A stretch of 64,000 nucleotides of DNA from Sebaldella termitidis ATCC 33386. GTDB taxonomy: Bacteria > Fusobacteriota > Fusobacteriia > Fusobacteriales > Leptotrichiaceae. The notes below the pieces were generated by a model. The model was not told the DNA's origin. It worked only from the letters and a program-made list of their open reading frames with translations, and made no database searches. The stretch is taken from assembly GCF_000024405.1 (NCBI RefSeq), contig NC_013517.1:3689989-3753988 (forward strand). The letters are read 5' to 3'. The position numbers and the translations under genes are program-made. This document shows positions 52,150 through 57,695 of the stretch, in pieces. The number at the start of each line of letters is the position of its first letter. The first letter of the stretch is position 1.

Positions 52150-52750
52150 TTATAAGACTAAATATTCACTACTATATCCCACAATTTCGGTGCGATACTG
52201 TTCCAGCTTCATCAATACACTCTGACAGTCATTAGCATGAATAGTGCTTAATCCCCTGCATGTCCCAAGTTCCATGCTTTGAGCAACCCCAATGTTTCCT
52301 CACCTCTTCTGAGCTCCCCTACAATAATTCTGTCAGAATTAAATCTCATAGAACTTTGAAGCAGCATTTTCATAGATACATGATATGTTGTTGTAAGAAA
52401 AACAGAATTCTGAATATTACACTGTTAATTTCAGAGTATCTTCCAGCAAAAATACTCTGTCTTCAGTCCCTGTGAGTTCATTTATACACCCATTGATAAA
52501 TGTTGTTGCCCCGGAACTTGTCCTTCCTAGGATTAGAATATTCTTTTTATTTAAATTCTTTTTACCAGAAAATCTTTCTGTTTCTGAGTTATTATTCTGC
52601 CTTCCACAAATACTCTCTCAGGTCTCTTTCTTATAGAGAATACCGGCTTATATGGTATCAAATATTATCCCTTCAAATCTGTTACCGTTTGGCAACACAG
52701 CACTTACTTTTGGTTCCTTTCTTGTTACTGCTTTTTTATTATACAAAGTA
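52150..52750 (-). pseudogene. Dead trbB-like conjugation ATPase
   Basis: The minus strand, with several stops and frame changes, reads the TrbB/VirB11 ATPase blocks in order: EPKVSAVLPNGNRFEGIIF, PVFSIRKRPERVFVEGRIIT (with a frame change), KNILILGRTSSGATTFINGC (Walker A, GGTGSGKTT in active proteins), DRVFLLEDTLKL, LLQSSMRFNSDRIIVGELRR, AQSMELGTCRGLSTIHANDC (the GG(I/L)STIHANS block) and QSVLMKLEQY. The Walker A Lys is replaced by Ala. It is clearly non-functional. Confidence 0.75.
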
Positions 52751-52769
52751 ATTATTTCTATACTTCATA

Positions 52770-52990
52770 ATGAATTGTCCAGGCATCCTCCATTTTTTAA
52801 AATCATTATTGAACCTTCCAAGAAACGATATTACAGTTCCTTTTTCCGCATAACCCAGATCATAATTTCTTACTCTTATTGTTAACTGCAAGCCGCTGTA
52901 TTTATTAATTACAACATTATCTTCCTGTAAATAATCCCACGGAAGATAATACGCAAGACTATTCTTAAAATCTTTGTTTTACCCTTTCAT
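52770..52990 (-). pseudogene. Dead trbE-like 5' end, copy 1
   Basis: ATG after GGAAGTGAGGA, TAA at codon 4, then in frame NKDFKNSLAYYLPWDYLQED, NVVINKYSGLQLTIRVRNYD, LGYAEKGTVISFLGRFNNDF and KKW, the start of TrbE/VirB4 ATPases, breaking up near 52790. It is followed at once by the trbB-like fragment, the reverse of the usual trbB-C-D-E order, so the DNA has been rearranged. Confidence 0.65.
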
Positions 52991-53376: not shown

Positions 53377-53464
53377 TGGTGCGAAAGACGGGACTTGAAC
53401 CCGTACAGCCTTATCGGCCACAAGGCCCTCAACCTTGCGTGTCTACCATTTCACCACTTTCGCA
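53377..53464 (-). tRNA. tRNA-Leu (anticodon GAG)
   Basis: Minus strand, 88 nt with encoded CCA. Acceptor stem TGCGAAA / TTTCGCA, anticodon stem CAAGG / CCTTG with loop TTGAGGG (anticodon GAG), a long variable arm as in tRNA-Leu, and T-arm GGGTTCAAGTCCC. It adjoins the conjugation relics and is a possible old integration site. Confidence 0.93.
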
Positions 53465-53675: not shown

Positions 53676-53704
53676 TTGACTTATATATGAAAAAGTTATA
53701 TATT
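53676..53704 (+). promoter_or_regulatory. Promoter of the met leader/metNIQ operon
   Basis: TTGACT, 17-bp spacer, TATATT. The predicted start is near 53711, about 26 bases ahead of the leader ORF. Confidence 0.7.
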
Positions 53705-53736
53705 AAAGCATAATAAATTAACAAGGAGGAAATCAA

Positions 53737-53880
53737 ATGTCTGTAATATTCTTTAATTTTGTTTCAGTAAACACAATGTATATGATGTTAATGTGCATGT
53801 CTATGATGATGTACACTTTTTTACATACTGAAATAAAACAGAGAATAAAAAAAGATATTTTGAATTGCTTATTAATATAA
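53737..53880 (+). CDS. Met-rich leader peptide upstream of metNIQ
   Basis: 47 codons behind a strong AAGGAGG. Residues 14-25 read MYMMLMCMSMMM: eight Met in twelve codons, nine in all. The first 30 residues are hydrophobic, and the tail is basic (HTEIKQRIKKD). The stop codon is 44 bases before an intrinsic terminator, which in turn is 25 bases before the metN start. This is the layout of a classical attenuation leader (as for trp, his, leu) but with methionine as control codons. Alternative: a small membrane protein that works with the transporter. The Met run and the terminator favour the leader, moderately. Confidence 0.65.
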   Translation: MSVIFFNFVSVNTMYMMLMCMSMMMYTFLHTEIKQRIKKDILNCLLI

Positions 53881-53924
53881 ATAAACTAGTTATCACAGTT
53901 TAAAATTATTTAATAATAAATAAC

Positions 53925-53960
53925 AAAAAATACTTTGGAATTTTCTGAAGTATTTTTTTT
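53925..53960 (+). terminator. Attenuator-like terminator before metN
   Basis: AAAAAATACTT / AAGTATTTTTT, 12-base loop, then more T. It lies between the Met-rich ORF and metN. An upstream competing pairing (GTTAT 53890-53894 with ATAAC 53920-53924) overlaps it closely. Confidence 0.75.
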
Positions 53961-53985
53961 ATTGAATTACAGAAAGGAGTTACAA

Positions 53986-55011
53986 ATGATAAAAATTGAA
54001 AATATTTATAAATCATTTGATCACAAAAATGTACTTACCAATATCAGTCTTGAAATACCAAAAGGCAGCATCTACGGCATCATAGGTTACAGCGGCGCCG
54101 GAAAAAGTACACTTATCAGAATTATCAATGCACTGGAAAGACCTGATTCCGGTAAGGTTTTTATTAATAATACCGAATTATATTCTCTTGATAAGAAAAA
54201 AATTCAAAATGAAAAGAAGAGAATAGGAATGATTTTTCAGCACTTTTATCTTCTGAACAGTAAAACTGTTTTTGATAATGTGGCAATAGCCCTAAAAATA
54301 AATAAAACAGATAAGAAAGAAACAGAAAAAAGAGTTATGGAAATACTCCGATTCGTAGGACTGGAGAACTATAAAAACAGTTATCCCGAACAGCTTTCAG
54401 GCGGACAGAAGCAAAGAATCGGCATAGCAAGAGCATTGGTAAATAACCCAAAAATACTCTTATGCGATGAAGCCACTAGTGCTCTTGATCCGGAAACAAC
54501 CAAACAGATACTGGAGCTTTTGCAGAAAATAAACAGGGAACTTGGGCTAACAATAGTACTTATCACACACCAGATGGAAGTGATAAAAAACATCTGTGAC
54601 AGGGTTGCAGTCCTTGAAAATGGCAGTATCATAGAAGAAAATGATGTTTTTAATATTTTTGCTTTCCCAAAGAAAACTACAACACAAAAATTTGTGGAAA
54701 GCATACTTCATCAAGATATCCCTGATTCTGCTTACAAGCATCTTATAAACGGCAGACTTTACAAACTTACATTTTCCAAAGGACATGTTGATGAACCGGT
54801 TTTATCGAATATTACAGCTGAAACAGGAGTTAATTTCAGTATTCTCCAGGGAGTGGTTACAGAAATACAGGAACATTTCTTTGGTCAGCTTATTGTGAAG
54901 CTTACATCGGCAGATAAGCGGACAGATACCGCTTTAGAAAAACTAAAAACTTACGGAGTAGAAATACAGGAGATAAAAAAGGAGGAAATACACTATGAAT
55001 GTTTCACTTGA
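53986..55011 (+). CDS. metN: Methionine ABC transporter ATPase
   Basis: 341 residues from the ATG at 53986, preceded by AAAGGAG; the longer frame from 53935 lies in the terminator. ABC domain with Walker A GYSGAGKST, signature LSGGQKQRIGIARAL and Walker B ILLCDEATSALD. The C-terminal ~75 residues form the NIL/ACT-like domain (VDEPVLSNITAETGVNFSIL) that binds methionine and gives trans-inhibition in MetNI. It overlaps metI by 17 bp. Confidence 0.95.
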   Translation: MIKIENIYKSFDHKNVLTNISLEIPKGSIYGIIGYSGAGKSTLIRIINALERPDSGKVFINNTELYSLDKKKIQNEKKRIGMIFQHFYLLNSKTVFDNVAIALKINKTDKKETEKRVMEILRFVGLENYKNSYPEQLSGGQKQRIGIARALVNNPKILLCDEATSALDPETTKQILELLQKINRELGLTIVLITHQMEVIKNICDRVAVLENGSIIEENDVFNIFAFPKKTTTQKFVESILHQDIPDSAYKHLINGRLYKLTFSKGHVDEPVLSNITAETGVNFSILQGVVTEIQEHFFGQLIVKLTSADKRTDTALEKLKTYGVEIQEIKKEEIHYECFT

Positions 55012-55645
55012 ACAAATAATTAATGCCACATGGATAACTGTTTATATCTCGGTATTTTCATTTATTCTGGGTACCCTTATAGCTTTTTTTCTGGGCTTTA
55101 CCTTATATTTTACCAGAAAAGACGGAATATATGAGAATAAAAAATTATATGTCATTCTTGATATAATAATTAATTTTATCAGATCACTGCCGTTTGTAGT
55201 ACTGCTGCTTCTGCTTATTCCTGTAACAAGACTTCTTGTAGGAAGTGCAATAGGTCCAAATGCAGTGATTGTATCCCTTACATTTTTTGCCGCGCCATAT
55301 ATTGCAAGACTCGTGGAAAGCTCCTTGCTTGAAATAGACCATGGTATTCTGGAAGTAGCAGATTCATTGGGGGCCAATACTCGTGAACTTATTTTTTACT
55401 TTCTGCTTCCCGAAGCTGCTTCATCTTTGATTTTTAATCTTTCCATTGCATTTGTAAGTATAATAGGTGCAACAGCAGTGGCAGGAACCATAGGCGGCGG
55501 CGGACTCGGAGACCTTGCGATTTCATTCGGATATAACAGATATGATTACGCGACACTTGTAACCGCTGTGGGAATAATAGTAATTCTCGTACAGCTTGCA
55601 CAATTTTTAGGAAAATATTTATCAAATAAAGCAAAATATTTATAA
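54995..55645 (+). CDS. metI: Methionine ABC transporter permease
   Basis: 216 residues with five membrane segments. The EAA loop that contacts MetN is EVADSLGANTRELIFYFLLP, EA. AAGGAGG inside the end of metN precedes the ATG, so translation is coupled. MetI dimers with MetN and the MetQ lipoprotein import L- and D-methionine. Confidence 0.95.
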   Translation: MNVSLEQIINATWITVYISVFSFILGTLIAFFLGFTLYFTRKDGIYENKKLYVILDIIINFIRSLPFVVLLLLLIPVTRLLVGSAIGPNAVIVSLTFFAAPYIARLVESSLLEIDHGILEVADSLGANTRELIFYFLLPEAASSLIFNLSIAFVSIIGATAVAGTIGGGGLGDLAISFGYNRYDYATLVTAVGIIVILVQLAQFLGKYLSNKAKYL

Positions 55646-55663: not shown

Positions 55664-56482
55664 ATGAAAAAAAGAAATTTATTACATTTAATCACATTAC
55701 TGGTTCTGGTATTTTTTATCACAGGATGCGGAGCGAGATCAGGGAAAAAATACAGAGTCGGTATAAACGGTTCTACTTCCAGACAATGGGAACACATAAA
55801 GAAAGAAGCTGCTAAAAAAGGGATAAATCTGGAAATAGTTTATTTTTCAGACTATGTTCAGCCCAACAGAGCTCTTGTAGATAAGGAAGTAGATATAAAT
55901 GCCTTCCAGACTCTTTCGTTCCTAAATACATTTAATGAAACAAATAAACAGGATATAACTCCTATAGGAACTACAATTCTGGCTCCAATGGGAATTTATT
56001 CAAAAAAGTTAAAGTCTCTTGATGAGCTGCCGGAAAAAGCAAAAGTAACTATTCCAAATGATCCCTCTAATCAGGGAAGAGCATTAAAGCTTTTGGAAAA
56101 AGCAGGATTAATAAAATTGAAAGACAGTAATGGAAAAATAATAAGCAATAATGACATTGCCGAAAATCCAAAACAGCTGGAAATAATTCCGCTGGCTGCT
56201 AATCAGCTTCCTCAGACTCTGAATGACACCGAAATATCAGTAATTAACAACGGAGTGGCAGTAGATGCCGGCTTCTCACTTAATCAGGCTATTTTCAAGG
56301 AAGATAAGCTGGCAAAAGATTATATAAATGTTATTGCTGCGAGACAGGACAATAAAAGTGATGAAAATCTTCTGGAGATAGTAAAATTATATCAGAGTGA
56401 TGATGTAAAAAAAATCATAGAAGAGGAAACAAAAGGAAACTCTATTCCTACATTTATACCATTATCAGAGATAGGTTTTTAG
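55664..56482 (+). CDS. metQ: Methionine-binding lipoprotein (NlpA/MetQ family)
   Basis: 272 residues. Lipoprotein signal with lipobox FITGC (Cys22). The NlpA family signature follows: KKYRVGINGSTSRQWEHIKK, FSDYVQPNRALVDKEVDINA, FQTLSFLNTF, VTIPNDPSNQGRALKLLEKA and AVDAGFSL. It captures methionine at the outer face of the inner membrane for MetNI. GGAGG precedes the ATG. Confidence 0.93.
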   Translation: MKKRNLLHLITLLVLVFFITGCGARSGKKYRVGINGSTSRQWEHIKKEAAKKGINLEIVYFSDYVQPNRALVDKEVDINAFQTLSFLNTFNETNKQDITPIGTTILAPMGIYSKKLKSLDELPEKAKVTIPNDPSNQGRALKLLEKAGLIKLKDSNGKIISNNDIAENPKQLEIIPLAANQLPQTLNDTEISVINNGVAVDAGFSLNQAIFKEDKLAKDYINVIAARQDNKSDENLLEIVKLYQSDDVKKIIEEETKGNSIPTFIPLSEIGF

Positions 56483-56498: not shown

Positions 56499-57695
56499 AT
56501 GATAAAAACAGAAAAGGAATTAATAATAGAATTTACTGATAAAAACAGCGAAGTTCTTATAGAAATTGCAAAATTTATTCACAGTAATCCCGAGCTCGGA
56601 AATCAGGAATTTTTATCTGGGAAGGCACTCGGCAGCTTTCTGAAAAAACATAATTTTACTGTGACACATAATATCGCAGGACATGAAACAGGATTCACCG
56701 CAAGAAAAGTTTCATCCAGGCCCGGTCCAAAGATTGCTTTTCTTGCTGAATATGATGCATTGCCTGAAATAGGACACGGCTGCGGTCATAATCTAATAGG
56801 AACTGCAAGTGCAGGAGCTGCCGCGGCAATAGGAAATATCATTGAAAGCCTTGGCGGGGAAGTTGTTGTTTTCGGTACTCCTGCTGAAGAAGGCGGAGAT
56901 AACGGGAGTGCAAAAGCAAGCTTTGTTAATGAAGGTTTATTTGACAATATAGATGCAGCATTAATGTTTCATCCCGCCAACAAAAATTCTGTTACACAAA
57001 AAACACAAACTGTGGAGCCTGTGGATATAGAATTTTTTGGAAAAACAGCACATGCTGCCGGCAGTCCTGAAAAAGGAATAAATGCCTTACATGCTCTCAT
57101 ACATTTTTATAATACTTTACACTCACACCAAACAGGAAAATTCAAAAATCTTAATATACATGGTGTTATTACTGATGGAGGAAAAGCACCCAATGTAATT
57201 CCTGATTACGCCAAAGCCAGATTTTATATCCGCGGAGCTACTTCCAATGAAAGCAGGGAGGCAGTAAATACCATAAAAGACATACTCACAGGTATTGACA
57301 AAGCTTTTAATACTACATCAAAACTTACATATTTTCAAAACAGGGTTGATCATTTTGTTCTTACTCCGGAGTTTGATAAATTATTCAGCAATATTTATGA
57401 AGATTATACCGGCCTTACAATAGAAAAAGGACAGATAAAGCCAGGAGGTTCTACTGATGCTGCTAATGTAAGCCATGTCACACCTGTAATTCATCCCTAT
57501 CTTTCAATAGGCGACTCTTCACTTACAGGGCATACAACTGAATTTGCAGATGCAGCATGTTCTGAAAAAGGCTTTGAGACTCTTCTGTTAGCAGCAAAGC
57601 TTCTGAGCCTCACAGCTCTGGAGCTGTATAAAGATTCAGAATTACTTGAAAAAATAAAAAACGACTGGAATAAAAGGATTGACTCTCAAAAATAA
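56499..57695 (+). CDS. M20-family metallo-amidohydrolase
   Basis: 398 residues. M20D domain with AFLAEYDALPEIGHGCGHNL (metal-binding Asp/His region), GTPAEEGGDNGSAKASFVNE (catalytic Glu), a dimerisation domain (EFFGKTAHAAGSPEKGINAL) and GGSTDAANVSHVTPVIHPYL near the end. Such enzymes cut N-acyl amino acids or dipeptides. Placed 16 bp after metQ, it may release methionine from N-acetyl- or N-formyl-methionine after uptake; that is an inference. AAAGGAGG precedes the ATG. Confidence 0.88.
   Translation: MIKTEKELIIEFTDKNSEVLIEIAKFIHSNPELGNQEFLSGKALGSFLKKHNFTVTHNIAGHETGFTARKVSSRPGPKIAFLAEYDALPEIGHGCGHNLIGTASAGAAAAIGNIIESLGGEVVVFGTPAEEGGDNGSAKASFVNEGLFDNIDAALMFHPANKNSVTQKTQTVEPVDIEFFGKTAHAAGSPEKGINALHALIHFYNTLHSHQTGKFKNLNIHGVITDGGKAPNVIPDYAKARFYIRGATSNESREAVNTIKDILTGIDKAFNTTSKLTYFQNRVDHFVLTPEFDKLFSNIYEDYTGLTIEKGQIKPGGSTDAANVSHVTPVIHPYLSIGDSSLTGHTTEFADAACSEKGFETLLLAAKLLSLTALELYKDSELLEKIKNDWNKRIDSQK

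Follow-up and report, generated by a model that had tools for sequence, protein, structure and literature searches.

The 47-codon open reading frame (ORF) preceding the ABC transporter operon metNIQ of the termite-gut bacterium Sebaldella termitidis ATCC 33386 very probably belongs to a ribosome-mediated transcription attenuator sensing charged methionyl-tRNA, as judged from its sequence and from computed RNA folds. The stretch of DNA that was analysed, hereafter the window, comprises 64,000 nucleotides (nts). Its leader has an ORF with a ribosome-binding site, a run of Met codons ahead of metNIQ and a terminator before the first gene; the computed folds contain an antiterminator that is released by stalling and is exclusive with the terminator, and the control codons are retained in an otherwise drifting peptide. 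An earlier note on this DNA had proposed attenuation by ribosomes stalling at the Met codons, and this proposal is supported by the mutually exclusive helices, the conservation, and the independent Met leaders found in seven genera.

Leader region of metNIQ and its conservation in the genus

Direct inspection of the sequence confirmed the positions that had been assigned to the promoter, the AAGGAGG site, the leader ORF with its stop, the terminator and metN (Table 1), as well as the eight Met in residues 14-25, the ATG codons of which were located at 53776, 53782, 53785, 53791, 53797, 53803, 53806 and 53809. Among all six frames of the window, this is the densest Met run (8/12), the runner-up elsewhere having 5/12. 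For the candidate promoter, 20 TTGACT-17-TATATT sites were found versus 17.0 ± 4.1 expected, so the consensus match alone is not above chance; the promoter spacing and the −10 region are roughly maintained in two congeners. Downstream, the M20-family amidohydrolase gene is probably the final gene of the metNIQ operon, and its product may free methionine from N-acyl or peptide forms. A search of the genome contigs with metN returned distant homologues only. On the minus strand, a tRNA-Leu (gag) gene at 53377-53463 is divergent from the leader and retains its position in both congeners, and neighbouring short ORFs at 52150-52890 (FNSDRIIVGELRRGEETLGLLKAWNLGHAGD, GLSTIHANDC...) resemble a broken VirB11/TrbB-type secretion ATPase gene.

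Table 1. Features of the metNIQ leader and operon, in window coordinates.
Feature	Position	Strand	Details
Candidate promoter TTGACT-17-TATATT	53676..53704	+	TTGACT 53676-53681, 17 nt, TATATT 53699-53704
Shine-Dalgarno AAGGAGG for leader ORF	53723..53729	+	
Leader ORF, 47 codons, MSVIFFNFVSVNTMYMMLMCMSMMMYTFLHTEIKQRIKKDILNCLLI	53737..53880	+	ATG start; TAA stop 53878-53880
Control region, 8 Met codons of 12, residues 14-25	53776..53811	+	Leader ORF
Segment 1	53747..53769	+	21 bp with 53826-53847; hairpin around Met run; ORF codons 4-11
Segment 2	53826..53862	+	53826-53847 partner of segment 1; 53839-53862 antiterminator 5′ strand; block near-invariant among congeners
Segment 3, terminator 5′ arm and loop	53924..53947	+	Partner: segment 2 (antiterminator) or segment 4
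Intrinsic terminator	53925..53962	+	3:4 hairpin 53925-53958, −12.6 kcal/mol; U tract to 53962
metN, ABC ATPase	53986..55011	+	ABC_tran and NIL domain
metI, permease	54995..55645	+	BPD_transp_1
metQ, lipoprotein	55664..56482	+	Lipoprotein_9
M20-family amidohydrolase	56499..57695	+	Peptidase_M20, M20_dimer

The leader was found at the equivalent site in two of the three other genomes of the genus (the third, 86% complete, has no match), with peptide identities to the window leader of 94% and 63%. Two codons of the Met run are deleted and others altered in one congener (G001), in which eight Met are still present, and the block AACAGAGAATAAAAAAA after the run is identical in the congeners. A 1-nt insertion in G001, which lengthens the A run of segment 2 by one A, shifts the frame of the C-terminus, by which DILNCLLI becomes RYLLIHSYNKII, and the RNA strand is retained despite this frameshift (CAGAGAAU, AAAGAUAUUU and AAAGATATTT are kept). 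This indicates that the RNA, not the peptide, is conserved at this stretch. When the leaders were aligned across relatives, a check that had been proposed earlier, the Met run, the stop and the terminator were retained and the remainder drifted; the window terminator is almost identical in the congeners and in metY leaders of another family.

Alternative RNA helices and the proposed switch

Folding of three leaders (those of the window and of the congeners G002 and G001) yielded three mutually exclusive helices, 1:2, 2:3 and 3:4. Helix 1:2, 21 bp between 53747-53769 and 53826-53847, encloses the entire Met run, and through this hairpin ORF codons 4-11 mask the 5′ strand of the antiterminator, helix 2:3, which pairs 53839-53846 with 53940-53947 and 53851-53862 with 53924-53936. 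The search for a mutually exclusive pair that the earlier note had called for thus ended in an antiterminator of 53839-53862 with 53924-53947. Its authors had considered a stem at 53890-53924 as the competitor and remarked that it only abuts the terminator; the remark holds, and the stem, which is not kept in G001, was rejected as the antiterminator. The strand competing with the terminator lies inside the ORF. An antiterminator built from 53851-53862 alone (AAAGAUAUUUU) was also rejected, with 183 of 200 shuffles as strong in a 16-nt scan, and this segment was later recognized as the inner half of the longer helix.

Statistically, dinucleotide shuffles with an equally strong helix 1:2 numbered 1/1000 for the window leader, 0/1000 for G002 and 5/1000 for G001, and those with an equally strong helix 2:3 numbered 8/1000, 9/1000 and 99/1000, respectively, each test addressing one helix among several candidates examined. 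Helix 2:3 of G001 is therefore not significant by itself (99/1000, and 418/1000 with a shorter target). The three leaders were then folded as transcripts ending at 53949, assuming ribosome footprints and excluding, for the stalled state, the RNA upstream of a ribosome in the Met run. With the ribosome stalled there, the pair probability of the antiterminator was 0.94-0.98, and with no ribosome or a ribosome at the stop, helix 1:2 reached a probability of 1.0, and that of the antiterminator did not exceed 0.02. In the full-length transcript with a stalled ribosome, the terminator was still favoured at equilibrium (0.85-0.99), and antitermination would hence have to be kinetic, with the antiterminator in place before 53949-53958 is transcribed.

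Under a shortage of Met-tRNA, the ribosome would stall at a Met codon in 53776-53811, between segments 1 and 2, whereby helix 1:2 would be blocked and segment 2, left free, would capture segment 3 ahead of the synthesis of segment 4; with the antiterminator 2:3 formed, the polymerase would continue into metNIQ. With ample Met-tRNA, the ribosome would pass segment 2 and reach the stop at 53878, helix 1:2 would re-form behind it, and segment 3 would be free, so that the terminator would form. Since helix 1:2 forms without translation as well, the default state of the switch should be off.

The same three helices were predicted in a metY leader of another family (L184 in G055, genus g23; MLKTFFSSISMMMCRMCMCMMMCIF..., MLKTFFSSISMMMCRMCMCMMMCIFSHTNRKIEMKKCFIN), together with a near-identical terminator, AAAATACTTTGGAGATTTCTAAAGTATTTTTTTT. 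Its antiterminator, UAGAAAU/AUUUCUA plus AAAGUGUUUU/AAAAUACUUU, has as its window counterpart CAGAGAAU/AUUUUCUG plus AAAGaUAUUUU/AAAAUACUUU; the two differ on both strands, which indicates that the pairing was preserved through changes, and 11 of 1000 mononucleotide shuffles were as strong as that of L184. In the sister genome G053, a leader rich in Met and Cys is accompanied by the same terminator and a strong 1:2 helix (2/500 shuffles), and its antiterminator is weaker (125/1000). Because BLASTP between the window leader and the g23 metY leader gave a non-significant E of 0.10, the kinship of these leaders is based on the terminator and the helices, not on peptide similarity.

Met leaders and a second RNA layout across Fusobacteriales

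Leader scans were made within Fusobacteriota. The regions preceding 68 Fusobacteriales metN genes were searched for short ORFs with a Shine-Dalgarno site, with 2720 shuffled regions as the control: at least four Met in 10 residues occurred in 20 of 68 regions and in none of the shuffles, and at least three in 24 of 68 and in 2 of 2720, respectively. Met leaders with terminators precede metN in seven genera (g1, g2, g8, g10, g11, g13 and g25), and the peptides are dissimilar between genera save for Met: MKFAITLMMHM in g2, MKKFAKNMMMDM and MQFTTNFMMMYMCLSL in g8, MKYTTTFMMMHMYT in g10, MINKVVTFKMNMMHM in g11, MTTYNLISKTTMMNMMMPMGVGTKN in g13 and MKNLEFRQLNMMMMLWKGL in g25. Leaders within one genus are not independent, but no fewer than five leader types have sequences dissimilar to one another. 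In Leptotrichia-like genera, and in several others, metN is present but lacks a Met leader. Across 98 genomes, the RNA model R1 retrieved ten clear loci; each lies directly upstream of metN, and one had been left out when the model was built. Weak R1 matches in G040 and G057, the R2 matches L134 and L135, and the R3 matches L152, L155, L156 and L157 were false positives when the sequence was read, and the pattern ATGATGATGNNNATG matched mainly ordinary genes or wrong frames.

Met leaders were also found before other genes. In S. termitidis, which has at least three, one precedes metY-metF-metA (MINYKYINDNMMMYMRYRV, G000:C1:2308773), and a leader of G001 lies before metE-metY-metF-metA (MIKYKYFNNNMMMYMRV); others precede metA in G055, metY in g13, metY and hom-metY in g25, and, in two g25 genomes, a divergent methionyl-tRNA synthetase (MetRS) gene (MKNIEFRQLNMMMMLWKGL), an occurrence limited to these two genomes and not extended here to the usual metG. 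Before cysK-metQ, leaders occur in S. termitidis (MKVHYIIDKNNLMMCMC) and G002 (MNAVYIIDKKNLMMCMC); that of S. termitidis (L137, L168; G000:C1:3447711-3447845 minus), followed by hairpins and a terminator, mixes Met and Cys codons and perhaps senses both amino acids. A g13-type Met leader before an oligopeptide-binding protein gene (SBP_bac_5; L162, G012:C3:109568-109716 minus) suggests peptide uptake as a source of methionine. In the Leptotrichia-like genus g6, M(I)MCM leaders with conserved hairpins and a terminator (L116, L120, L127 and L128) precede a family-3 solute-binding ABC transporter, their Met count varying and being low in some genomes. Tyr-rich leaders, MKQKIVFNTNTYYYYYLT (L165, G008:C1:855253-855400) and MKQQKQFNRNSYYYYYIN (L154, G015:C6:19783-19917), lie before a sodium:alanine-family symporter gene (PF01235) with a similar terminator layout and are candidate tyrosine attenuators.

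Most other Fusobacteriales Met leaders have a different layout, four successive alternatives designated A:B, B:C, C:D (antiterminator) and D:E (terminator), with segment A beginning at or just beyond the leader stop codon. In the g2/g8/g10/g11 group all helices are kept, with 96% of A:B plus D:E cells, 100% of B:C cells and 93% of C:D cells paired, and pairing falls when the partners are slid; compensated changes occur in the terminator, and the other helices vary little. In g25, the antiterminator carries a double change between genomes, from GUCUGCC/GGUAGAC to GUUUGCC/GGCAAAC, which only the antiterminator explains because the changed D bases sit in the terminator loop. In this layout, a ribosome at the stop would mask A, so that B:C would form and D would be free for E, giving termination; stalling further upstream, at the Met run, would leave A free, and A:B plus C:D would let transcription continue.

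Competing explanations and relation to known systems

The ORF could encode a small Met-rich protein that functions in the membrane or in metal binding, the proximity of the ORF to metNIQ being incidental or functional at the protein level; a membrane protein was the alternative named in the earlier note, and the hydrophobic N-terminal half, the Met/Cys-rich run and the good Shine-Dalgarno site are compatible with it. It is disfavoured and appears extremely unlikely given that the 47-codon ORF has no Pfam match, that amino-acid conservation beyond the Met run was not found (the C-terminus is frameshifted in G001 while the RNA is kept), that the leaders at the same position in other genera have 11-16 residues (as in MKFAITLMMHM and MKKFAKNMMMDM) and are unrelated apart from Met, and that unrelated Met leaders also precede metY, metE, metA and MetRS genes. 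Nascent-chain arrest of the TnaC or SpeFL kind, in which methionine or S-adenosylmethionine (SAM) would be sensed as a small molecule rather than through uncharged tRNA, would be served equally well by a layout in which stalling frees the antiterminator, and close relatives do share part of the flanking sequence (TTMMNMMPxGVGTKN in g13). However, an arrest peptide depends on particular conserved residues, and the residues flanking the Met run are wholly different between genera, the Met codons alone being common; with a MetRS gene among the targets, which fits sensing of tRNA charging, such arrest is very unlikely.

Joint sensing of methionine and cysteine through Cys codons interspersed in the run deserves somewhat more weight, though we still consider it unlikely for these leaders: MCM within the window leader, MMCMC before cysK-metQ in S. 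termitidis, CMCMMDMCMEMHM and MCRMCMCMMMC before metY in g23, and M(I)MCM before the SBP_bac_3 ABC transporter in g6 point to it, but the window run has eight Met and one Cys, and many leaders (g2, g8 L064, g10 L068, g11, g13 and g25) have a run without Cys. Met codons might stand by chance before an ordinary terminator, as terminators between genes are frequent and the genome has a high A+T content; against the frequency of 20/68 versus 0/2720 and the conservation in several genera, the probability of this, or of an overlooked known riboswitch or T-box, is negligible. Neither the window leader nor the scanned Met-leader loci gave an Rfam match at gathering score. At the metN leader there was no match to RF00162 or another SAM covariance model and none to RF00230; the sole RF00162 match of the genome (C1:1846920) and its sole, weak T-box-like match (C1:427326) are both far from metN.

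Known regulators of methionine genes are SAM riboswitches, T-boxes and repressors. In other Fusobacteriaceae, a SAM-I riboswitch occupies the same position before metN and metY, and in the family of S. termitidis a genome has no more than one SAM riboswitch, never at metN or metY; the gene set is the same and the sensor differs. Both control the same genes by a terminator, but the riboswitch (RF00162) senses SAM and not Met-tRNA, and no aptamer is present in the window leader or the scanned Met leaders.

Leader peptides have been described for Trp, His, Leu, Ile/Val, Thr, Phe, Cys and others (PMC1262725, PMC2965389, PMC10272879, PMC8632094), and a survey of Actinobacteria saw no conserved RNA element upstream of methionine operons (PMC1262725). 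By its predicted anatomy, the window leader belongs to the known ribosome-mediated attenuators, the amino acid, the phylum and the helix chain in relatives being new. Like the classical attenuators (trp, his, leu, ilv, thr and phe in Proteobacteria; trp and ilvB in Actinobacteria, PMC1262725; the ilvB-II uORF in Corynebacterium, PMC10272879), it has a pathway-codon-rich ORF, a terminator, exclusive 1:2, 2:3 and 3:4 helices, and control codons at a position where stalling promotes 2:3. It differs in using methionine, in Fusobacteriota, and in having an antiterminator strand inside the ORF, more than 25 nt past the control codons, while many of its relatives rely on the longer four-helix chain, with the stop codon as its trigger. 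Cysteine leader peptides (Mycobacterium cys operons, PMC1262725; cysS uORFC-8-2, PMC8632094) likewise read a sulfur amino acid via leader codons, but they concern cysteine, other phyla and unrelated sequences, and the mycobacterial cys leaders have no obvious terminator. The authors of the Streptococcus fthC uORF motif (PMC11109978) also speculate on methionine status acting via a uORF, in their case through fMet initiation only, without a Met-codon run, and in another gene and phylum. No description of methionine leader-peptide attenuation was found in the openly readable literature, and priority is thus not proven.

Taken over the order, the sequence comparisons make it likely that the Fusobacteriales methionine regulon (uptake, biosynthesis and in places MetRS) is run by Met-tRNA-reading leader peptides, arisen or exchanged repeatedly with the SAM riboswitch and using two RNA layouts, including the stop-codon-triggered four-helix chain. 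If so, methionine would join the amino acids under ribosome-mediated attenuation, and Fusobacteriota the phyla with classical attenuators. The bacterium would sense its free methionine supply via tRNA charging rather than SAM, one order would have switched between riboswitch and leader peptide at the same genes, and two different RNA circuits reading one codon would provide a testable case.
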